64,000 bases of DNA from Bacteroidota bacterium (lineage in GTDB: Bacteria; Bacteroidota; Bacteroidia; Bacteroidales; UBA12481), in assembly GCA_018669475.1 (NCBI GenBank), contig JABHCC010000124.1, forward strand, positions 1-64,000, given 5' to 3'. A model generated the notes under the pieces. It did no database searches. It saw only the letters and a list, made by a program, of their open reading frames with translations, and was not told the DNA's origin. This document shows positions 1,153-12,576 of the stretch, piece by piece. The stretch's first letter is position 1. Each line of letters begins with the position of its first letter. The position numbers and the translations under genes are program-made.

Positions 1153-1228
1153 GCTGTTAAAATCCACTAAGGTTTTTTGGTAATTATTATTCAAGGAAAT
1201 GCAAAAATGAAGTTACACATGCATGAAA

Positions 1229-1879
1229 TCAGTCAATTAGTCTTGTGAGCTGTTTGGCAATTTGCCTGCTTTTTTTGCTCATTTCATTATCCTGAGGACT
1301 GAAGTTCATAAATAGCTCTTTTGCCTCTTGATATTCTTCATTGGCTATTTTACATAGTCCCAGATACCATAAACCAGATGTTTTGTATGATCCACCTTGA
1401 GAGATGACAGTTTTTAATGCATTTTCTGCCTCTTTGTATTCCTGAAGTTCAATGTGAATTAGGCTTCTTAGAAGATGATAATCAGGATTATCTGGGAATT
1501 CCTGACAAAGCTGGGTTATTGAAGGCAAGGCATGATCAGAATCTCCATTTTGATAGAGTTGGATTGTCACTAAATAAGGATAAACAACAGAGGAATCTGC
1601 CCGGTATTCAGTTTGATAAATGTAGGTCTCATAATACTTGTCAAACAAGTCCATCCCAGATAAAGCATTACGCCCATTAAGATTTAACAGAATGATTCCT
1701 ATTAAACTGGCAGCAATAGCAATGCCTGATACAAAGTATATTCTCCTGCTACGGTATCTTTTGTGTGCTCTTTTAGCCATGATTTGATATCTATAGGCAC
1801 TACTATTCTGACGTTCATCATATGAGATCTGATCAAGCAAATGCTCAAGATTTTTTATTCTCCGATCGTCGTTTTCCAT
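1229..1879 (-). CDS. Membrane-anchored TPR protein, possible anti-sigma partner
   Basis: A 216-residue protein with a basic cytoplasmic N-terminus (1-46), one transmembrane helix (about 47-66) and a periplasmic part holding two or three TPR-like helical hairpins (about 95-205). Its start overlaps the end of the sigma-factor gene by 35 bases, which suggests translational coupling. Single-pass proteins co-encoded with ECF sigma factors in Bacteroidota often hold the sigma factor at the membrane. No recognisable FecR or zinc anti-sigma domain is visible, so that role is inferred from context. The periplasmic TPRs could contact the TPR-CHAT protein encoded divergently. It could instead be only a scaffold. 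Confidence 0.7.
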   Translation of the reverse strand: MENDDRRIKNLEHLLDQISYDERQNSSAYRYQIMAKRAHKRYRSRRIYFVSGIAIAASLIGIILLNLNGRNALSGMDLFDKYYETYIYQTEYRADSSVVYPYLVTIQLYQNGDSDHALPSITQLCQEFPDNPDYHLLRSLIHIELQEYKEAENALKTVISQGGSYKTSGLWYLGLCKIANEEYQEAKELFMNFSPQDNEMSKKSRQIAKQLTRLID

Positions 1880-2369
1880 TCTTTTTCCAATTATTTCTTA
1901 GGAATTCTTTTAAGGTGGTATGATTGGGTGAATTATCAATAATCTCCAGAAGTTTACTCCGATTTTGAGAGATTACCGAATAGAATACATTCATGGATTT
2001 GTAATTGAATTGTTCACAAATATCTTTCAATTTCTTGTCATGAAATAATACTTGTTCCATCACATCTCTTTGTTTTGGAGGAAGTTGTTTGATCAGTTGC
2101 TTTAATGATTCTTTACAGGTGTCATAGTCCGACGTTTTAGATATTTGCTCATCATTTTCTTGCGCTTTCATCTTCCGGGCATAATTTAGTAAATTTCCCC
2201 TCCCAATTACTTTGTAGCGTACAAGCCGTTTTATGACATTTTTCGCAAATCCAATCAGATAAGCAACCGGCTCAGCAATAGGCAATAGACCGGGTTTGCG
2301 AAGAAACTCGTCTAAAGTATCCTGAAAGACATCCTCCTGATTTTCTTTTGTAAAAAGCCTTTGCCTCAT
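1845..2369 (-). CDS. ECF-type RNA polymerase sigma factor, N-terminus shifted out of frame
   Basis: The 174-residue frame holds sigma region 2 (E-D-V-F-Q-D-T-L, then core-binding YLIGFAKNVI) and region 4 (Q-L-P-P-K-Q-R-D-V followed by a helix-turn-helix), the ECF layout. Region 2 is incomplete at the 2369 start: the same frame is open upstream to the G8 tract (…L-N-A-F-I-R-S-E-L). The missing start lies in another frame at 2485. One extra base in the G tract (G9) would join them into a ~213-residue sigma factor of normal length. As given, the product would lack sigma region 1.2/2.1 contacts. It is co-transcribed with the TM-TPR gene, and its likely target is the divergent CHAT gene. Confidence 0.75.
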   Translation of the reverse strand: MRQRLFTKENQEDVFQDTLDEFLRKPGLLPIAEPVAYLIGFAKNVIKRLVRYKVIGRGNLLNYARKMKAQENDEQISKTSDYDTCKESLKQLIKQLPPKQRDVMEQVLFHDKKLKDICEQFNYKSMNVFYSVISQNRSKLLEIIDNSPNHTTLKEFLRNNWKKNGKRRSENKKS

Positions 2370-2485
2370 TAATTCACTTCTAATGAATGCATTGAGGGGG
2401 GGGAGACCAGGTTTAAGGCCTCTTTATTGCCCTCCCTGATCTGCTCCAAGGTGTTTTTTAGTTTCGGTTTGTTCTTTGATTTCAT
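2370..2485 (-). other. Displaced 5' end of the ECF sigma gene, with G8 slippage tract
   Basis: On the minus strand an ATG at 2485 opens M-K-S-K-N-K-P-K-L-K-N-T-L-E-Q-I-R-E-G-N, then K-E-A-L-N-L-V. I-R-x-G-N-x-x-A-L is the typical start of ECF sigma factors. The frame runs into eight G on the plus strand (2396-2403, C8 in the gene) and stops soon after at TAA. The downstream sigma frame is offset so that adding one base restores a continuous protein. This is either a real slippage/phase-variable tract, an inactivating mutation, or a homopolymer undercall. Confidence 0.75.
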
Positions 2486-2528
2486 TTGTCTCGATAGACC
2501 TACCAAAGCTAGTAAACAGATTATGGAT

Positions 2529-2568
2529 ATCCAACCCCAACATAGTAAATCTTATGTTGGGGTTGGAT
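2529..2568 (-). terminator. 16-bp perfect hairpin between peptide and sigma genes
   Basis: Arms 2529-2544 and 2553-2568 are perfectly complementary over 16 bp around an 8-nt loop (GTAAATCT). The hairpin sits just after the stop codon of the small proline-rich peptide and before the sigma ATG at 2485. No U-tract follows on either strand, so it is not a classic intrinsic terminator. It could attenuate or protect the transcript at the peptide/sigma boundary. The structure is seen; the role is inferred. Confidence 0.6.
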
Positions 2569-2582
2569 GTGGATTAGCAGAA

Positions 2583-2740
2583 TCATCCTCCACCAGAACC
2601 TGGATCAGGATCCGGAGGTGGAGGAGGTGGTGGGTCAATGGGGTCTCCATCACCATTTCCGCCATAAACGAATCCCATTTCTTTCATTGTCAGGGCCCTG
2701 ATCTCCCTTTTTTTTTCTCAGGATTGTTGGTTTTGTCCAT
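2583..2740 (-). CDS. Small proline-rich peptide, frame broken at an A9 tract
   Basis: The minus strand encodes 34 residues from ATG 2687 to TGA 2583-2585: M-K-E-M-G-F-V-Y-G-G-N-G-D-G-D, then P-I-D, seven prolines and D-P-D-P-G-S-G-G-G. Just upstream, ATG 2740 opens M-D-K-T-N-N-P-E-K-K-K and runs into nine A (T9 at 2708-2716). One added base would fuse the two into a ~52-residue protein with K-R-E-I-R-A-L-T-M as the join. It precedes the sigma gene on the same strand. I know no named family. A polar, Gly/Pro-rich tail on a charged head could suit a secreted or protease-cleaved peptide; that is speculation. Confidence 0.5.
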
Positions 2741-2850
2741 TGCATAGAAATTTTGGTTTAACATGGAACTGTCATATGATTACCACAGCAGAATGGAAAA
2801 CCTTAATGGTTGAATGGAGTTTTTTTATTGAAAATGACAATATATTCGTT

Positions 2851-2876
2851 GCAACCTCCGTGGTTTTTTCGTAGTA
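2851..2876 (+). promoter_or_regulatory. Candidate ECF-type promoter of the CHAT gene
   Basis: GCAACC at 2851-2856 (an AAC-type -35) is followed 13 bases later by CGTAGTA at 2870-2876 (a CGT-type -10). The spacing resembles ECF sigma promoters, and the predicted start of transcription falls about 20 bases before the CHAT start codon at 2904. A T6 run lies in the spacer. The motif was found by eye in a divergent spacer beside an ECF gene; no second copy was noticed in the window. Confidence 0.4.
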
Positions 2877-2903
2877 TTAGGAAAGTAAGCCTGCCGGACC
2901 AAC

Positions 2904-5318
2904 ATGATACGATTACTCAGCATATTCACTCTATTATGCCTTTCAATGAGCGTAATAGCACAAGAAAGGTCATTGAATGATTTATACACTAAGACTTTGC
3001 AAGTATCAAAACTGATCAATCATGCCGATTATGTTCAGGCATTGGATCGTGCTGATAAGATACTCGGACAATATTCGGATTTTAGTCCAAATTCAGTTTA
3101 TTTCACCTATCTCCACATGTATAAAGCTTCTGCTTACATGGCCCTGGGTGATTTGATGCTATCAAGCCATTGTTATTCACTAGCTCTGGAATATGCCAGA
3201 AAGAGTGAAAATCATGAAATACAATTTGCAATACGAAATAATCTTGCTGTTCTGGATTTGGAAAGGCAAAACTATCAAGAATGCTTTGATCAATGTCTGG
3301 TTTTGTGGTTTGATGAGGGTTTTCAACCGGAACTTGATCAACAGGCTGCGGTACTGAATAACCTTGCTATTTGCGCAGTGCGGTTAAATAACAAAACTGC
3401 TGCTGATAGCTTGTTTCCTCAATTATTTGCCATATCAGAGACTGAATTGCCATTTGTAAAATTTGATCCGGTTCTGCCGTATCGGAATTACGGCCAGTTC
3501 CTGAGGCAGTTAGGGAGAGACAAAGAGGCTGTTAAGTATTTTAGTATAGCCCTTAACCGGTTTATGGATTCACTGGGTTTGCATCATTTCCAGACCGGGC
3601 AATCTTACCTGTATCTGGGTGAATGCTATCAGGCTATCGGGAATCTGGATTCTGCCAGAATTTGTTTCGATCACGCTGTGAATATCTTGGATCCTGACAG
3701 CCTGTTTGTCGGAACTGCTACATATGAATTGATCAGGATAAAGGCATATCGGACCAGAGCCAGTTTTTGGGTTTCTATTTCCAGGGTAGAGAGGGCTCTG
3801 GCTGACATTGAGAAAGCAATTGAAAGGATTGAATTTATTATGCGCTATTATACATCAACTGAATCGGGTTTTGCTGTAGCCATGGTCGTCAGACCAGTGT
3901 ACAATCTGGCTATTGAGTTGGCTTTGACATTATTTCAGCGGAATAATGAAAACAAGTATTTTTTCAAAGCCCTGATGTACTCAGATCAGGCAAAAAGGAT
4001 GTCACTTCAAACGAATTACCAGAACCTGTACGAGGTGGAATTGTCACCTCAGTTAGAGAAGGCTTATCGTTCATTTTATGCCACCAGACTTGCATTATCA
4101 AAAAAGCATGAATCACCATCTGATCTTGCCGGTCTTGTTCAGCAGCACAGCGAAAACAGGATATACATGGATTCCATATTAGGTTTTTCTGATCTTATGG
4201 CCTCTGCCCGCCAAGAGAACAACCAGATAAACCAAAAAGATTTTGTCAATCCTTTGTTAAGCTTTTACGATCTGGATACCACTTTTCGTGTTCTGTTTTT
4301 AAATGGAAGAAAAACGGACTATTACGAAATAACAAAAACCACAAAGCTGAAAGAGACAATTCATTCATTTAAAAGCCTGATCTCGAAGACACGAACCGGT
4401 AATTATGGTCAGGCCGAATTGCAGGAGTATGTAGAGTATGCCGCTTATCTGTATGAAGTTCTGATTAGATCGACAGATTGGACTGAGAATGGCCCCCTAT
4501 ACATTCAGGCAGACGGCGAATTAAATGGTTTGCCATTTGGGGCTTTTGTGGATTTGAAAGGTTCAGATAGCCAAAGAGGTCTGATACATACTTTCAAAGA
4601 CCTGCCATATCTGATCCGGAAAAATCCGGTATTCTACGTCAGTTCAGTTTCTAAAAGTACGACTCCACATACGAATCTTGAAAATGGATTAAGTCTAATA
4701 ATGGCTTCCGGTGATTCTTCACTGTCAGCATCGGAATCAGAGATTAATGCTCTTCAGTCTCATTTCAAAGACAAATTCCTCTATGGTTTAAAACAAAGGA
4801 GCAAAATTCTTCATTTTATTGTACATGCAGATGTTGACTTAAGCAATCCCTACAACTCCGTATTGAGCAATGGATACTCCTGGTTGGATATTCTGGGCAT
4901 GGATAACCGTGGTAAGCAGGTGTACCTGAATGCTTGTCAGACCGGTGTAGGGCGATATAATTCCGGAGAGGGATTTATGAGTTTAGGTCTGGCATTCTTG
5001 TTATCGGGGGCTCAACAGGTTGTTGAAACCTATTGGATGGCTCCGGAAAGGCAAAGCGCAGATATTGCCATCGGGTTTTATCAAAGCAAAGGCTTTAAGA
5101 ATCCGGCAAAAGCACTGCAATCTTCAAAACTTCAGTACCTGGATGATGCCGAACCTGGTCTGGATCATCCTCATTACTGGGCTGGGGCAATGATTCAGGG
5201 GCGTATCGGGTTTGAATCTTCTCAAGGAGATTTGATATTCCTGCTCCTCGGGATTTTCCTGATTGGCATTCTTTTATACCTTCTTTATCGATTTCGCACG
5301 GTAAAAAACCTTACCTGA
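2904..5318 (+). CDS. Secreted TPR-CHAT protein (putative caspase-like protease)
   Basis: 804 residues: Sec signal peptide (1-19, ending VIAQ), a long TPR/helical region (about 30-400), a CHAT domain (about 490-755) and a C-terminal membrane helix (about 775-797) with a basic tail. CHAT is a caspase-HetF-like peptidase fold. The catalytic pair appears intact: H641 in L-H-F-I-V-H-A-D and C678 in Y-L-N-A-C-Q-T-G. The domain would be periplasmic and tethered to the inner membrane. It is divergent from the small-peptide/ECF sigma/TM-TPR operon and is preceded by an ECF-like promoter. Substrate unknown; the co-encoded small peptide or TM-TPR protein are candidates by neighbourhood only. Confidence 0.85.
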   Translation: MIRLLSIFTLLCLSMSVIAQERSLNDLYTKTLQVSKLINHADYVQALDRADKILGQYSDFSPNSVYFTYLHMYKASAYMALGDLMLSSHCYSLALEYARKSENHEIQFAIRNNLAVLDLERQNYQECFDQCLVLWFDEGFQPELDQQAAVLNNLAICAVRLNNKTAADSLFPQLFAISETELPFVKFDPVLPYRNYGQFLRQLGRDKEAVKYFSIALNRFMDSLGLHHFQTGQSYLYLGECYQAIGNLDSARICFDHAVNILDPDSLFVGTATYELIRIKAYRTRASFWVSISRVERALADIEKAIERIEFIMRYYTSTESGFAVAMVVRPVYNLAIELALTLFQRNNENKYFFKALMYSDQAKRMSLQTNYQNLYEVELSPQLEKAYRSFYATRLALSKKHESPSDLAGLVQQHSENRIYMDSILGFSDLMASARQENNQINQKDFVNPLLSFYDLDTTFRVLFLNGRKTDYYEITKTTKLKETIHSFKSLISKTRTGNYGQAELQEYVEYAAYLYEVLIRSTDWTENGPLYIQADGELNGLPFGAFVDLKGSDSQRGLIHTFKDLPYLIRKNPVFYVSSVSKSTTPHTNLENGLSLIMASGDSSLSASESEINALQSHFKDKFLYGLKQRSKILHFIVHADVDLSNPYNSVLSNGYSWLDILGMDNRGKQVYLNACQTGVGRYNSGEGFMSLGLAFLLSGAQQVVETYWMAPERQSADIAIGFYQSKGFKNPAKALQSSKLQYLDDAEPGLDHPHYWAGAMIQGRIGFESSQGDLIFLLLGIFLIGILLYLLYRFRTVKNLT

Positions 5319-5481
5319 TATTCAGTTGCTTAGCTCGTATTTTGTTTTTTGTTGAAAAAAGTCAGCAAAATCCATTAAGGTTTTGGAGATATCTCCGGTA
5401 TATAGACAGATTGTTTATAAAAGTTACAATGGAGGAAAAGAAACTCTGGTATTGTCAATATCCACTAACCAAGTTCAAAAT

Positions 5482-6669
5482 ATGAATGTTTCAATAATTA
5501 CATGGAGGATTTACTTGGGAATTCTAATAGTTGTTATTCTCAGTTCAGCATGTATCAAGAACGAACAATTTACTAATACTAATGAAATAGTAATTCCTGA
5601 TAATCAGGATGAAATTAAGAGTTATTTGTCTGAATATGCTGACACAGTTTGGTACGTGTATTTGGAGGATTGTGATTCATCATATATTGGTCAGGTTTCT
5701 GAAATGAAATTATCTAGAAATTACATCATAATATATGACAAGTATATCAATCAATTAAGTCTTTTTACCTCCACCGGGGCATTTCTTAGAAAGATTGGGA
5801 AACAAGGCGGAGGACCTGGAGAGTATGGCAATGTATTTAGCTTTGACATTACTAAAGATGAATCCTTAATATACGTTTACGCACCTGGAGACAACATATT
5901 GGTATATGGTATTAATGGAATCTTCAAGGAAAGCATTTATGTTGGTATTAAATTTAGGTACTTGAACTTGATTGGCAATAAGGTGGCCATTCAGGTTTCA
6001 TACCCAATTTCACATATATATGATGGATACTCCAATTATATTTTGGATCAGAGCGGGCAAGTTGTAAAACGACTTTGGAAGAAGAACCCGATTAATAAAA
6101 ATGGTGAACCACGAATATCAGGCTTTTCTGAAAACTATTTATATCAAGACACGATTTGTTATTGGGAATACTTCAATGATACGATTTATGGGTTATCCAA
6201 AGACTATTCTCTGATTCCTAGATGGGCAATTAATTTGGGACCAAGAAAGCTGGGAAATTCTGCTTTTCAAAACATGTCAACTCTGGGTGAGAAAACGACT
6301 GAAGCTGTTCGGCTAATGACATCCTTTGCAGAGACAACAGATTTCTTTTTTTTAGAACTTGTTGACAGAAGAAAACTATGCCGATACATTTATCTAAAAA
6401 ATAAACAAAGCATATTAAAGGTAGGATCGGGAAGAATTGATAGTCGAATTCCTGAATTAATCAATGACCTTGATAATGGCCCAAATTTTTGGTCAACTAG
6501 AAGTGTGAACTCTTCAGTGTTGGTAAAGGTTGTCGAACCTTCTGAGATGATAACATTACTGTCAAATACTACTGGAGTAAAGAACAATAGCCAGCTACAA
6601 GGATATAGAGAATTGTTGACAATTGAAAGTAACCCAACCTTAATGTTTATCAAGATGAAATCTAAATGA
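5482..6669 (+). CDS. 6-bladed beta-propeller lipoprotein
   Basis: About 395 residues from ATG 5482, chosen because it gives a clean lipoprotein signal (I-L-I-V-V-I-L-S-S-A-C); a longer TTG-start frame from 5383 adds no signal peptide. The body shows repeated beta strands with the family hallmark G-K-Q-G-G-G-P-G-E-Y followed by an aromatic/aspartate blade (about residues 105-120). These propellers are surface or periplasmic lipoproteins of unknown ligand. The stop overlaps the next start (ATGA at 6666), so it is co-translated with the thioredoxin-like lipoprotein. Confidence 0.8.
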   Translation: MNVSIITWRIYLGILIVVILSSACIKNEQFTNTNEIVIPDNQDEIKSYLSEYADTVWYVYLEDCDSSYIGQVSEMKLSRNYIIIYDKYINQLSLFTSTGAFLRKIGKQGGGPGEYGNVFSFDITKDESLIYVYAPGDNILVYGINGIFKESIYVGIKFRYLNLIGNKVAIQVSYPISHIYDGYSNYILDQSGQVVKRLWKKNPINKNGEPRISGFSENYLYQDTICYWEYFNDTIYGLSKDYSLIPRWAINLGPRKLGNSAFQNMSTLGEKTTEAVRLMTSFAETTDFFFLELVDRRKLCRYIYLKNKQSILKVGSGRIDSRIPELINDLDNGPNFWSTRSVNSSVLVKVVEPSEMITLLSNTTGVKNNSQLQGYRELLTIESNPTLMFIKMKSK

Positions 6670-7265
6670 GAAAAGCCATTATTATATTATTAGCCTTATG
6701 GTTTCAATTTGGTTGCGCTAATCAAAAACTTAAGGAAGAAAATATCATGCAAGAAGGTTCAAGTATTCAAAATGAATTAGAGCTGACACTTTTATCCTAT
6801 TTTGAGTTTGAAAGGATTCAAATCAATGATTTCTATCTTTTTGATAAAAATAATGATTCAAGTCTTTTTTCAAGGTTCGTTAAGGATTCAACAGTATTAT
6901 GCTTATACCTCCCTATTAACTCTTGTTTGGAATGCGTAAACAAACAACTACTTGAATTATCAAAATCTGAGCATCAAAAAACAACAGAAAGAACAATTAT
7001 TATTTCGGTAACTCCAAATTATCGGGCCATTTATACGCTGCTAAGAAAATACAAACTTAAGATTCCTGTATTTAATTGTTGGAATGAGAATATTATTAGT
7101 GCAAATAGAAAATACCCTGGACCATTCTTTTTCCTTCTCAATAACCACTTGACTCCATGGATGTTTTACCTTCCTCCGGGAAATAGTGCCAATCTAACAC
7201 CTAAATATCTCAATTCGGTTCGTCAACGATTTAATGAAAATAGTCATGAGAGTTATTTGCCTTAA
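6666..7265 (+). CDS. Thioredoxin-like lipoprotein
   Basis: 199 residues with a lipoprotein signal (W-F-Q-F-G-C, Cys 17). A redoxin-like fold is suggested by a hydrophobic strand ending in S-C-L-E-C (a CxxC placed as in thioredoxins, about residues 84-90) and by G-P-F-F-F-L-L near residue 148, where the cis-proline strand normally sits. It overlaps the preceding propeller gene by four bases. Similar propeller/redoxin pairs are common in Bacteroidota gut and marine genomes. Whether it acts in disulfide exchange or only keeps the fold is unclear. Confidence 0.6.
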   Translation: MRKAIIILLALWFQFGCANQKLKEENIMQEGSSIQNELELTLLSYFEFERIQINDFYLFDKNNDSSLFSRFVKDSTVLCLYLPINSCLECVNKQLLELSKSEHQKTTERTIIISVTPNYRAIYTLLRKYKLKIPVFNCWNENIISANRKYPGPFFFLLNNHLTPWMFYLPPGNSANLTPKYLNSVRQRFNENSHESYLP

Positions 7266-7417: not shown

Positions 7418-8833
7418 ATGCATCTAAAATATCGACTTTATAGATTAATGACTCTGGTGCTTATAGTTAATCTAGTATTTATTTTTCAAGTCCAAAGTCA
7501 GGAGCATCAAACATATTTTTTAACTGGTCATGTAACTAATACTTTTAGTGGGGAAGGAGTACCCTTAACTCACGTTATTATTATTGGGTTTAACATAACT
7601 ACAATTACTAATGAGGAAGGATGGTTTCGTCTTTCTATGCCCCCCGGAGATTACACATTGCAAATGTCTCATCTGGCTTACGAGCCTTTTGAAGTTTGCC
7701 TCACAATTTCTTCTGATACCACCAGTACATTCCATTTACAAAAAAAGGTGGTGTCAATGGAAGTGGTGAGTATTTTTGCTGAAAGAATAAGGAATCTTAC
7801 CCCTGAGACTTATTCTCATGTTTCAGATTATGAGGTAGTGGGAGATGAACTCTTCTTGATTGGGCATCCAAGTAAAAGATCTCAGAGTTATTTGTATTCG
7901 GCTCATCTGAATGGCAAAATCTATGATACTTTGCGCATAGATAAATCAGGTGAAGTTGAGAAGGATTATCTGGGAAACATATGGTATTTGGATAAAAATG
8001 ACGCTAGAAAAGTTGTGACTCTGGATCAGAAGCTTATTGTCAAGAATCCAATATCAGGTAGCGCTTACGAAGACTCAATTGATCATCCTATACTTCAATG
8101 GAACAATAAAACATACTTTCAGGACTATTTTGTTGGTGAGAAAGGGCTCAAAACATATTTCAGAGTTCCTCAGGTTGACAGCTTATATATAATAAGCACA
8201 ATAAGGGATTCAATGTTGATGTATTTACTATCAAGGAGGAAAGATGACAATCGTGCCAGACAGATTTCTGATGCATATTTCAATCAAGTCTGGGGGGCAG
8301 CAATGAGTGCAAATAAAGGAGGGCGAGGATCATATGCACCGGTCAAGCCACAGAGTGATTATGTGACAGCCTCTTTCACAGAACCATTGATTTATGGAAC
8401 CGGTGGAACAGGTAAAGTGAATTTTACAATCCCACTAATTAAAAATATTACAGCACCAATATTCCGTTTAGCCAATGTGCTTGTTCAGATAGATTATTAT
8501 AACTCTTCGATTTATTTCTTTAACGAAGCCGGGATGAAAATTCATCAAGTGCCTATTGAATTCCATCTAATTCGACAAGCAGGTGGAGTACTCAGACAGA
8601 TTTTCTTTCCAATTATCGATTATTTAAACCAGAGTGTATATGTATGGGTACAAAGAACAGATCATATCGAAGTGTACCAGCTTAGTGTTGAGACAGGCCA
8701 GCTAATCAAGAGAATCAATCTTGAGTCATTTCAGAATGTTCATAATCTGAAAATTGAAAATGGATCACTGTTCTTCTTATACAATGAGTTGCATTATCCA
8801 TATGCAACAAGATTGTATCGCTTGGATTTGTGA
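7418..8833 (+). CDS. Carboxypeptidase-regulatory-like domain + 6-bladed propeller protein
   Basis: 471 residues. A signal peptide (to about residue 28, V-Q-S-Q-E) is followed by a CarboxypepD_reg-like beta-sandwich (about 32-110: LTGHVTN, then T-N-E-E-G-W-F-R-L and P-P-G-D-Y-T-L), the N-terminal plug-like domain of many outer-membrane proteins. The rest (about 125-471) is a propeller with regular beta strands and no enzyme motif. It stands 150 bases after the redoxin gene, same strand, possibly the third member of that operon. It is probably exported to the periplasm or surface. Confidence 0.7.
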   Translation: MHLKYRLYRLMTLVLIVNLVFIFQVQSQEHQTYFLTGHVTNTFSGEGVPLTHVIIIGFNITTITNEEGWFRLSMPPGDYTLQMSHLAYEPFEVCLTISSDTTSTFHLQKKVVSMEVVSIFAERIRNLTPETYSHVSDYEVVGDELFLIGHPSKRSQSYLYSAHLNGKIYDTLRIDKSGEVEKDYLGNIWYLDKNDARKVVTLDQKLIVKNPISGSAYEDSIDHPILQWNNKTYFQDYFVGEKGLKTYFRVPQVDSLYIISTIRDSMLMYLLSRRKDDNRARQISDAYFNQVWGAAMSANKGGRGSYAPVKPQSDYVTASFTEPLIYGTGGTGKVNFTIPLIKNITAPIFRLANVLVQIDYYNSSIYFFNEAGMKIHQVPIEFHLIRQAGGVLRQIFFPIIDYLNQSVYVWVQRTDHIEVYQLSVETGQLIKRINLESFQNVHNLKIENGSLFFLYNELHYPYATRLYRLDL

Positions 8834-8930: not shown

Positions 8931-10082
8931 CTATGGCTTATTAAATTTCCTCCAGTTTAACACTTGAATTCCATTGCTCCTGTTTTGGGTTTCATCACCT
9001 GCATACAGAACTGTCCCTTTATTAATTTTGGAAAGTTTTGACCAGTAAATTAGATTTTTAAAGTAGTCTGAATTAATGGTTTGAGATGATTTGATTTCAA
9101 TTGGTGAAAGAGAATCTGCTTTTTCAAGAATAAGATCAACTTCATGTCCGGTTTTATCCCGCCAGTAAAAGAAGTTGCCTGAATGTGAGCTAAAAGATAA
9201 TTTTTTAATCTCTTCAGAAACCACCATTGTCTCGAAAATACTTCCTTTTAATGGGTGATATTTTAATTGACTGATATTCTTAATCCCTAATAATGAACAT
9301 ACAATACCCGGGTCATAAAAGAAGAGCTTAGGCCTCTTAACAATAGTTTTGTTGAAGTTTTTATGATGAGGCTTGAGTAGGAATATGATATAACTGGCCT
9401 CAAGAACAGAGATCCATGATTGAACCGTTTTGACATCAACCCCACAAACATTAGAAATTGCAGTCAGGTTTAATTCCTGAGCTGTGCGTCCGGCCAGAAT
9501 ATGCATAAAACGTTCAAACTGAATCAAGTCAGTAATGTTTTTTATCTGTCTTACATCTCTTTCTATGTAAGTGCGGATATAACTGGGATACCATTCAGCC
9601 GGTTCAAGTTGTTGATCAAAAACCGGTGGATAAAACCCGGATAGAATCAATTCGTCATCTGATTGATTGTGCTTTTGCTCGCTTAATTCCGAGTAGGTGA
9701 AAGGTAGCAGATTTATATGAGTCACTCTCCCCGCCAATGTTTGGGAAATATTTTGTTGTAATAGCAGATTGTTTGATCCTGTGAGAATAAACAGTCCTTT
9801 TGCAGTTGAATTATCAAGAATCTCCTGCAAATAAGAGAACAATTCCGGAACGCGTTGAACCTCATCCAGAATGGCACCATTGGGTAAGTCAGCTAAGAAG
9901 CCCTGCGGATCTTCCAGAGCGAATAATCTGTTCTGAGGATTCTCAAGTGATATATAATCCTTATCAGGAAATAAGGCTTTTACTATTGTGGTTTTGCCAG
10001 ATTGGCGAGGACCAGTAAGCACCACAGCCTTAAATGAATTAGCTAGTTTTAGAAGCCTGTTTTCTATTCCTCTATTAATCAC
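8931..10082 (-). CDS. AAA_14 / DUF4143 family ATPase
   Basis: 383 residues. N-terminal AAA domain with Walker A G-P-R-Q-S-G-K-T-T (about 24-32), Walker B A-I-L-D-E-V-Q (about 70-76) and the L-T-G-S-N sensor. The C-terminal DUF4143 domain has a PD-(D/E)xK-like pattern, H-E-V-D-L-I-L-E … P-I-E-I-K-S-S (about 308-330). Function is unknown; these ATPases are accessory, patchily distributed genes spread by transfer. It is opposite in strand to its neighbours and has a decayed partial copy at 948-1152, supporting a mobile or duplicated history. Confidence 0.85.
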   Translation of the reverse strand: MINRGIENRLLKLANSFKAVVLTGPRQSGKTTIVKALFPDKDYISLENPQNRLFALEDPQGFLADLPNGAILDEVQRVPELFSYLQEILDNSTAKGLFILTGSNNLLLQQNISQTLAGRVTHINLLPFTYSELSEQKHNQSDDELILSGFYPPVFDQQLEPAEWYPSYIRTYIERDVRQIKNITDLIQFERFMHILAGRTAQELNLTAISNVCGVDVKTVQSWISVLEASYIIFLLKPHHKNFNKTIVKRPKLFFYDPGIVCSLLGIKNISQLKYHPLKGSIFETMVVSEEIKKLSFSSHSGNFFYWRDKTGHEVDLILEKADSLSPIEIKSSQTINSDYFKNLIYWSKLSKINKGTVLYAGDETQNRSNGIQVLNWRKFNKP

Positions 10083-10301
10083 AGAGCAAATATATGGAAA
10101 AATATGGAATTAAACTCCATAAAATTCCATCAATGAGTGCTATTGCGCAAGAGAAGTTTTATGATGTCAGGGATGAAGCGGATCACTATCTACAACAATG
10201 TAGTTTATTCCCATTTAATGAAAAATCAAAGGTTTTCGTATGGATGAAATGCATGAATATTCGTATCTTAGAAATCAACAAAGAACACATGAGGACCTGA
10301 C

Positions 10302-11871: not shown

Positions 11872-12576
11872 TCAGAAGGAAATATTCCCGATTGCAAACT
11901 CAACTGCGGCCTCTGCATGTAGCTGAGTCGTATCCAGTATAGGTACAGAAACATCTTTCTGCTTCACCAAAAGTGGAATCTCAGTGCATCCCAGAATAAT
12001 CCCTTCTGCTCCCTGATCGATAAGCTTTTCAATAATCCTCAGGTACTCTGTTTTGCTATCTTTCAGGATAGTACCAAGGCATAGTTCCTTGTATATAATT
12101 CTGTGAATTGTATCCATATCGGTATCATCCGGAGTCAGGACTTTCAAACCATGTTTTTCTGCTAGTCGACCCTTGTAAAAATCCTGTTCCATAGTGAACC
12201 GGGTTCCCAACAAAGCAACTGTATTTAGTCCTTGCCTTTTTATTTCTTCAGCAGTAGTGTCAGCAATGTGGATAAGTGGAATAGATATCCCGGCACCAAC
12301 CTCCTTAGCCATTTTATGCATGGTGTTGGTGCAGATGATAATAAAATCAGCTCCGCCTTTTTCGAGTCTTTGTCCGGTTTCAACCATGATGCGTGATAGT
12401 TCTTCCCAATCATTATCATGTTGTAACTCTGCAATGGGGCCGAAGTCCACCGAATACATCAGGCATTGAGCCGAATGTAATCCGCCCAGTTTTTGTTTAA
12501 TTTGTTCATTCAGAATACGATAATACTCTAGCGATGATTCCCAGCTCATCCCTCCGATCATTCCTATAGTTTTCAT
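11872..12576 (-). CDS. Aspartate/glutamate racemase family protein (intact copy)
   Basis: 234 residues, a normal length for the family. The Asp/Glu racemase motifs are visible: N-terminal M-I-G-G-M-S-W-E-S, the first catalytic cysteine in I-I-I-C-T-N-T-M-H (about 82), and the second in L-G-C-T-E-I-P (about 193). These cofactor-free enzymes interconvert L- and D-amino acids through two cysteines; C-T-N-T-M-H is typical of the YgeA/RacX-like broad-specificity branch. It begins 10 bases after the stop of the upstream propeller gene, so it is probably its operon partner. Its first 94 codons are duplicated at positions 1-283. Confidence 0.88.
   Translation of the reverse strand: MKTIGMIGGMSWESSLEYYRILNEQIKQKLGGLHSAQCLMYSVDFGPIAELQHDNDWEELSRIMVETGQRLEKGGADFIIICTNTMHKMAKEVGAGISIPLIHIADTTAEEIKRQGLNTVALLGTRFTMEQDFYKGRLAEKHGLKVLTPDDTDMDTIHRIIYKELCLGTILKDSKTEYLRIIEKLIDQGAEGIILGCTEIPLLVKQKDVSVPILDTTQLHAEAAVEFAIGNISF

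Follow-up and report, generated by a model that had tools for sequence, protein, structure and literature searches.

What does a secreted CHAT protease do beside a sigma factor, a membrane protein and a small peptide? The question is raised by the window analysed here, a 64,000-nucleotide stretch at the start of contig JABHCC010000124.1 in the 5.56-Mb genome of an uncultured Bacteroidales host. At one locus it encodes a TPR-CHAT protein, a transmembrane (TM) TPR protein, an extracytoplasmic function (ECF)-type sigma factor and a proline-rich peptide (Table 1). This gene set is real and conserved. The relatives of the host used for comparison are Bacteroidales or Bacteroidota metagenome bins, among them a congener, Bacteroidales bacterium SW_4_38 (G001). 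We consider it reasonably probable that the set is a regulated-proteolysis membrane signalling module in which CHAT cuts TM-TPR, acting as an anti-sigma factor, and frees the sigma factor; binding, cleavage, export and role of the peptide, and phase switching are inferred.

The CHAT protein scores well above the family cutoff in a profile search against PF12770 (83.7 bits, E = 2.1e-23; cutoff 24 bits). With a signal sequence at its N-terminus and a membrane helix at its C-terminus, it is predicted to face the periplasm. His641 and Cys678 are invariant in alignments of 12 and 15 members. In the AlphaFold2 (AF2) model (pLDDT 83), strand 635-639 leads to His641 and strand 672-676 to Cys678, which is the usual caspase-clan arrangement as read from the order of the strands. 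An earlier, sequence-only reading of this DNA had proposed a secreted, membrane-tethered CHAT protein with an intact His641-Cys678 pair, and the pair is there; a missing active site, which would have spoken against that proposal, was not observed. A Foldseek search with the model returned chains of Csx29 as the best matches (E = 1.1e-15) and separase next. Against the Csx29 family NF041237 of NCBIfam, the protein scored 31.1 bits and missed the cutoff of 300. Searching the solved structures by sequence yielded matches dominated by TPR proteins; the fold search was informative instead. CHAT genes were present in 71 of 148 sampled Bacteroidota genomes.

The same reading had described the neighbouring protein as a single-pass membrane TPR protein, and this description holds: there is one TM helix near residue 46, and the Pfam families PF07719 and PF14559 match. 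The predicted layout is a cytoplasmic N-terminus of about 45 residues, a TM helix at about 46-66 and a periplasmic TPR domain at 96-215; basic residues precede the TM helix, as in an N-in orientation. The AF2 model (pLDDT 83) has a single long N-terminal helix (3-70) followed by the TPR helices. The TM-TPR and sigma genes overlap over 35 bp. Judging from position, overlap, topology and co-inheritance, TM-TPR is probably the anti-sigma factor of the co-encoded sigma.

Linkage was assessed in three sets of 20: CHAT loci outside the family of the window but within its class, CHAT loci of other classes, and control regions drawn from the genomes of the first set. The sigma/TM-TPR pair was adjacent at 12 of the 20 class loci, 2 of the 20 loci from other classes and none of the 20 controls (class versus control, Fisher's test, about 5e-5). 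Since the models were derived from the gene order of the window, the class-level result is out of sample, and the absence of conserved linkage, which would have spoken against the sequence-only proposal, was not observed. Within the family of the window, most window-type CHAT loci adjoin sigma and TM-TPR genes in varying orientations, and the three genes also occur together at Cytophagales/Cyclobacteriaceae and Algoriphagus loci. The CHAT and TM-TPR trees within the family have the same topology, including several paralogous modules from a single genome, with a Mantel correlation r of 0.60 (p = 2e-4) and p = 0.015 in a paralog-swap test. CHAT, sigma and TM-TPR are inherited as a unit.

The peptide follows a different distribution. 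In other classes, divergent small peptides rich in G, P and D lie beside 7 of 21 CHAT genes versus 1 of 92 other genes at these loci (p = 2e-5), and the single positive among the 92 is antisense to such a peptide. The tie between peptide and CHAT is therefore independent of the sigma pair. None of the 20 class-level CHAT loci had an adjoining peptide by the G/P/D criterion; given class-level sigma/TM-TPR loci without a peptide, the peptide is not obligatory, and neither partnership is universal.

A promoter motif, TTAAGGTTTT, in which 16 bases separate TTAAGG from GGTAAT or CATAAT, precedes both the peptide operon and another operon in several loci. Exact matches to the promoter pattern (TTAAGG-N16-GGTAWT in the window genome) number two in the window genome, both at this locus, five in the congener and five in genome G004; the reversed pattern gave three, zero and zero matches, respectively. 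Paired sites also occur in loci L040 and L045, and looser pairs in L044 and L048. The -10 element covaries within a locus, being GGTATA/GGTAAT in the window and the congener and CATAAT at both sites on contig C133 of G004. The 13-mer CCATTAAGGTTTT with one mismatch allowed was not enriched genome-wide, and specificity is limited to the exact sites and the full promoter pattern. The second operons behind the promoter encode small secreted proteins, six-bladed propeller lipoproteins and thioredoxin-like lipoproteins. In the window, no site of this pattern lies ahead of CHAT. Because the promoters precede the peptide-sigma-TM-TPR operon and the lipoprotein operon and none precedes CHAT, the sigma factor probably drives its own operon, the peptide and a secreted cargo. 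The earlier proposal that it drives the CHAT gene is not supported. The promoter pair had escaped the sequence-only reading, as had the leader and -1 frame of the peptide and the poly-C frame break of the sigma gene.

The peptide gene heads the sigma operon and is divergent from CHAT. Its product combines a double-glycine (GG) leader with a Pro/Asp/Gly tail, and the consensus of the group is KK..(L)(T/S)xxEMxxV(R/Y)(G/A)GDG...PPPPPPPDPDP(G/N)(S/H)GG, the first part of which is the leader. In an alignment of 12 peptides, E12, M13 and G19 are invariant and L8, V16 and D20 nearly so, with GG replaced by AG in two; the leaders conform to the LSxxELxxxxGG type. A search of 393 genomes of the order gave clear matches confined to the family of the window and a few others. 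The window peptide matched no family in Pfam or NCBIfam. Among families of ribosomally synthesised and post-translationally modified peptides (RiPPs) with GG leaders, the best scores of a paralog peptide were 14.0 bits (TIGR04149) and 16.2 bits (PF14406), below the cutoffs of 25. A known RiPP family label was dropped, as the homologues give sub-threshold leader matches alone. Paralog loci with other CHAT proteins encode peptides with the same leader and a DIIL tail, and several of them adjoin a C39-peptidase ABC exporter and HlyD. Loci L037, L058 and L059 have CHAT paralogs together with a DIIL-ending GG peptide, the exporter, HlyD and a longer TM-TPR protein with an anti-sigma-like N-terminus.

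The sequence-only reading had placed a proline-rich peptide in the operon. The peptide is real and conserved, but that reading missed that it is out of frame with its sole upstream ATG. No in-frame ATG, GTG or TTG precedes the leader motif in the poly-Pro group. Instead, an ATG, usually eight codons ahead of a Lys pair, opens a frame into a run of seven to nine A residues, and the peptide resumes in the -1 frame. Nine of 11 peptide genes show this phase (window, L257, L253, L252, L082, L083, L256, L263 and L266); in L264 the phase is +1, and L261 is in frame and interrupted directly past the motif. The joined product, as read in the in-frame copy L261, is MENCIEILKKTMVPWELSISEMLNVR. If phases were equiprobable and genes independent, the chance of at least nine of 11 in one given phase would be about 0.0014, a figure that kinship weakens. 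Between the window and the congener, substitutions in the -1 frame fall 7/2/15 on codon positions 1/2/3. We take the change of phase at the A-run to be a conserved frameshift, either ribosomal or transcriptional; the shortness of the A7 runs would favor ribosomal slippage. The downstream RNA fold was no better than that of shuffled sequences in four of five cases, giving no conserved stimulatory fold.

The ECF sigma factor of the earlier reading stands as a gene, but the open reading frame (ORF) listed for it, 1845-2369, is a fragment: the start lies at 2485, and the frame breaks at a C8 tract. From the ATG to the tract the translation is MKSKNKPKLKNTLEQIREGNKEALNLVSPP, and its continuation in another frame is LNAFIRSELMRQRLFTK; the joined reading matches the ECF models TIGR02937 (E = 2.8e-9) and TIGR02985 (E = 2.6e-10). 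Three genomes have a tract at the matching sigma codon, with C8 in the window (out of frame), C9 in L043 (in frame) and C10 in the congener locus L040 (out of frame). The C8 tract of the sigma gene is the only C or G run of at least eight in the window. By hand count, the whole genome has 28 C8+ tracts, and the congener has 14 across its 2.6 Mb; the three contigs that bear CHAT modules, about 42 kb, account for five of these. Two CHAT paralogs have C8 tracts on the minus strand. In L039, from the window genome, the tract (9079-9086) lies at the end of the signal peptide and is in frame; in L042, from the congener, the tract (8479-8486) lies out of frame at the signal peptide, and the alternative frame contains a signal-like stretch. 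These tracts resemble contingency loci and could turn the sigma factor, and sometimes CHAT, on and off in this genus; the C8/C9/C10 variation is between species.

We propose that the cytoplasmic N-terminus of TM-TPR would hold the ECF sigma factor, with its TPR domain in the periplasm, and that the TPR-CHAT cysteine protease would sit in the same membrane and face the same compartment as these TPRs. A signal reaching the TPRs of CHAT would lead CHAT to cut TM-TPR and free the sigma factor. Free sigma would then feed back by transcribing its own operon of peptide, sigma and TM-TPR, and would also transcribe a second operon, which encodes secreted and lipid-anchored proteins, but not the CHAT gene. 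Synthesis of the peptide would require a -1 slip on the A-run, and the peptide would leave through a GG (C39) exporter, most likely as a ligand of CHAT, or else as its substrate. A fuller version is a peptide-pheromone circuit in which the exported, frameshift-made peptide activates CHAT, the TPR anti-sigma factor is cut, sigma boosts peptide and cargo, and the poly-C tracts choose the participating cells; taken as a whole, we consider this circuit unlikely.

The nearest precedent is Craspase, in which the TPR-CHAT protease Csx29 cuts Csx30 and thereby relieves the inhibition of the ECF-like CASP-sigma (PMC10028731). By analogy with that cut, cleavage of TM-TPR by CHAT would be the simplest reading. 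Like the module described here, Craspase (Cas7-11/Csx29/Csx30/CASP-sigma; PMC10028731) has a TPR-CHAT protease, the top structural match, next to a sigma factor of ECF-like type and its putative inhibitor; our module departs from it in the signal peptide and TM anchor of CHAT, in a membrane TPR protein as the candidate inhibitor and in the additional GG peptide, and no RNA-guided component was seen. Neither Cas7-11 nor Csx30 was recognised among the ORFs around the loci read, and no genome-wide search for them was made. RseA/DegS-type and other membrane anti-sigma systems likewise have a single-pass protein whose gene accompanies and overlaps that of its ECF sigma, and an autoregulated promoter (predicted here); what sets our module apart is the TPR domain as sensor and a CHAT protease dedicated to it. 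The ECF54 group, which has CHAT genes in its context and for which control by proteolysis, with no anti-sigma factor involved, is described (PMC8999054), likewise has an ECF sigma beside CHAT; here, in contrast, the TM-TPR partner is constant. The transmembrane anti-sigma factor DdvA (PDB 8rot, 8rw5) is a solved structure that the fold search matched to the TPR part of the model of CHAT. This match was to CHAT and not to TM-TPR. We know of no CHAT domain in DdvA. Bacteroidota GG-leader RiPP precursors (TIGR04149, PF14406) share the L(S/T)xxE(M/L)xxVxGG leader and, in paralog loci, the C39 exporter; the peptides here differ in falling below the family cutoffs, in the -1 frame and poly-Pro/Asp tail, and in that no modifying enzyme was recognised nearby. 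We found no paper describing a sigma/TM-TPR/CHAT/peptide module in the literature searched. Its proposed mechanism is plausible, and the precedent of Craspase is a strong one.

Several results weigh against regulated proteolysis as proposed. The joined sigma falls slightly under curated cutoffs (TIGR02937, 36.8 bits against 42.9; PF08281, 24.5 bits against 25.7), and as assembled the sigma gene of the window cannot be translated in full. TM-TPR had no match among curated anti-sigma families in profile searches. In the congener, the sigma pair is about 4.4 kb and five genes away from CHAT, and most class-level CHAT loci with sigma/TM-TPR have no recognisable GG peptide beside CHAT. These peptide-free loci, together with a putative sigma-driven cargo of lipoproteins, propellers and small secreted proteins, would also suit an envelope-stress or secretion-quality sensor, with the peptide a bystander sharing the regulator. 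We judge this rather unlikely, as the sigma operon starts with the peptide gene, downstream of a sigma-type promoter, and peptides of this kind also adjoin CHAT in other classes. The peptide could conversely be the main CHAT substrate, a bacteriocin- or effector-like product that CHAT matures or destroys while sigma/TM-TPR merely regulates its production. G/P/D-rich peptides do lie beside CHAT at four loci (L137, L144, L150 and L151) that yielded no sigma/TM-TPR pair, the conserved EMxxVRGGDG stretch would be a natural cleavage site, and C39 exporters adjoin some of the peptides. We nevertheless find this reading doubtful: many CHAT genes with the sigma/TM-TPR pair lack a G/P/D peptide, the window peptide has Tyr and not Arg before GG, and the tight co-inheritance of CHAT and TM-TPR speaks against it.

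The out-of-frame sigma and peptide genes might also mean nothing and reflect decayed genes or faulty assembly. Errors are frequent in homopolymers, those carriers that have a name are metagenome bins, and a duplicated, eroded region adjoins TM-TPR. However, the -1 relation recurs in nine peptide genes from five genomes and different studies, with the ATG at a near-constant eight codons before the Lys pair; LTxxEM is conserved at the protein level in a stretch without a start codon; substitutions are in excess at third positions; and poly-C occurs at one sigma codon in three genomes with lengths of 8, 9 and 10. Decay or error is thus quite improbable. A Craspase-like immunity module, to which the Csx29 fold and the sub-cutoff NF041237 match might point, is very improbable, since the CHAT protein of the window is equipped with a signal peptide and anchored in the membrane, unlike Csx29, which acts on cytoplasmic RNA-guided complexes. 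A defence-system search gave no PADLOC match, and this identity was dropped. Between these alternatives, regulated proteolysis of TM-TPR by CHAT remains the reading we prefer.

CHAT genes abound in Bacteroidota, but no role is known for them; a unit of CHAT, anti-sigma candidate and sigma that is widespread would supply many of these genes with a role and suggest an origin for the sigma branch of Craspase. We are not aware of an established peptide signalling system in Bacteroidota, and we found none in the literature searched. Peptide signalling in this phylum becomes directly testable with a feedback peptide that combines a conserved frameshift and candidate switching tracts.

Table 1. Features of the locus, in window coordinates.
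Feature	Position	Strand	Basis or remarks
TPR-CHAT cysteine protease, 804 aa	2904-5318	+	signal peptide; TPR helices ~24-430; CHAT ~512-766; C-terminal TM ~774-800
Single-pass TM-TPR protein, candidate anti-sigma, 216 aa	1229-1879	-	Pfam TPR matches, AF2 model, conserved sigma neighbour
ECF-type sigma gene, frame broken at C8 tract	1845-2485	-	0-frame ATG 2485; second part 1845-2369
Poly-C tract of 8 (G8 on +) within sigma gene, candidate contingency tract	2396-2403	-	
Pro-rich peptide gene	2583-2740	-	0-frame ATG 2740, 7 codons, Lys codons, then -1 frame KKREIRALTMKEMGFVYGGNGDGDPIDPPPPPPPDPDPGSGGG
A9 run (T9 on +), presumed -1 slip site of peptide gene	2708-2716	-	A7-A9 run, equal -1 relation in 8 further genes
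ECF-type promoter CCATTAAGGTTTTCCATTCTGCTGTGGTAAT, upstream of peptide-sigma-TM-TPR operon	2779-2809	-	exact pattern match 2779-2806
Second promoter copy CCATTAAGGTTTTGGAGATATCTCCGGTATA, upstream of operon behind CHAT	5372-5402	+	exact pattern match 5375-5402
Degenerate promoter-like copy CCACTAAGGTTTT, no clear -10	1164-1176	+	
Six-bladed beta-propeller lipoprotein (DUF5128), first gene of putative cargo operon	5482-6669	+	PF17170 E 3.3e-26; promoter upstream
Thioredoxin-like lipoprotein, cargo operon	6666-7265	+	lipobox, CLEC motif by inspection; no significant Pfam match
CarboxypepD_reg-like secreted protein, possibly in cargo operon	7418-8833	+	PF13715 E 1.7e-12

In the congener, the same promoter likewise precedes a propeller gene and, after it, a thioredoxin-like gene. 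Cys-rich small secreted proteins head lipoprotein operons beside CHAT in L039 (2931-3242), L040 (8594-8887) and L045 (5435-5683); the promoter lies upstream in L040 and L045, and those scanned had no Pfam match above cutoff. Two promoter-pattern sites in G004, C41:22940 (L270) and C60:13228 (L276), had no CHAT gene within the 3 kb read; the former precedes small secreted and lipoprotein genes.

The surroundings of the module contain repeats. Positions 954-1151 of the window repeat 9893-10092 at about 85% identity; the latter fall at the DUF4143-like AAA ATPase gene (8931-10082), an eroded remnant of which lies directly downstream of TM-TPR. A DUF1573-like lipoprotein frame at 521-957 is apparently broken by a frameshift too. 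A direct repeat with 99% identity joins positions 1-283 and 12291-12573; the contig begins within a second copy of an aspartate/glutamate racemase-like gene, whose intact copy is at 11872-12576. With this repeat at both sides, the module island sits between two racemase copies.

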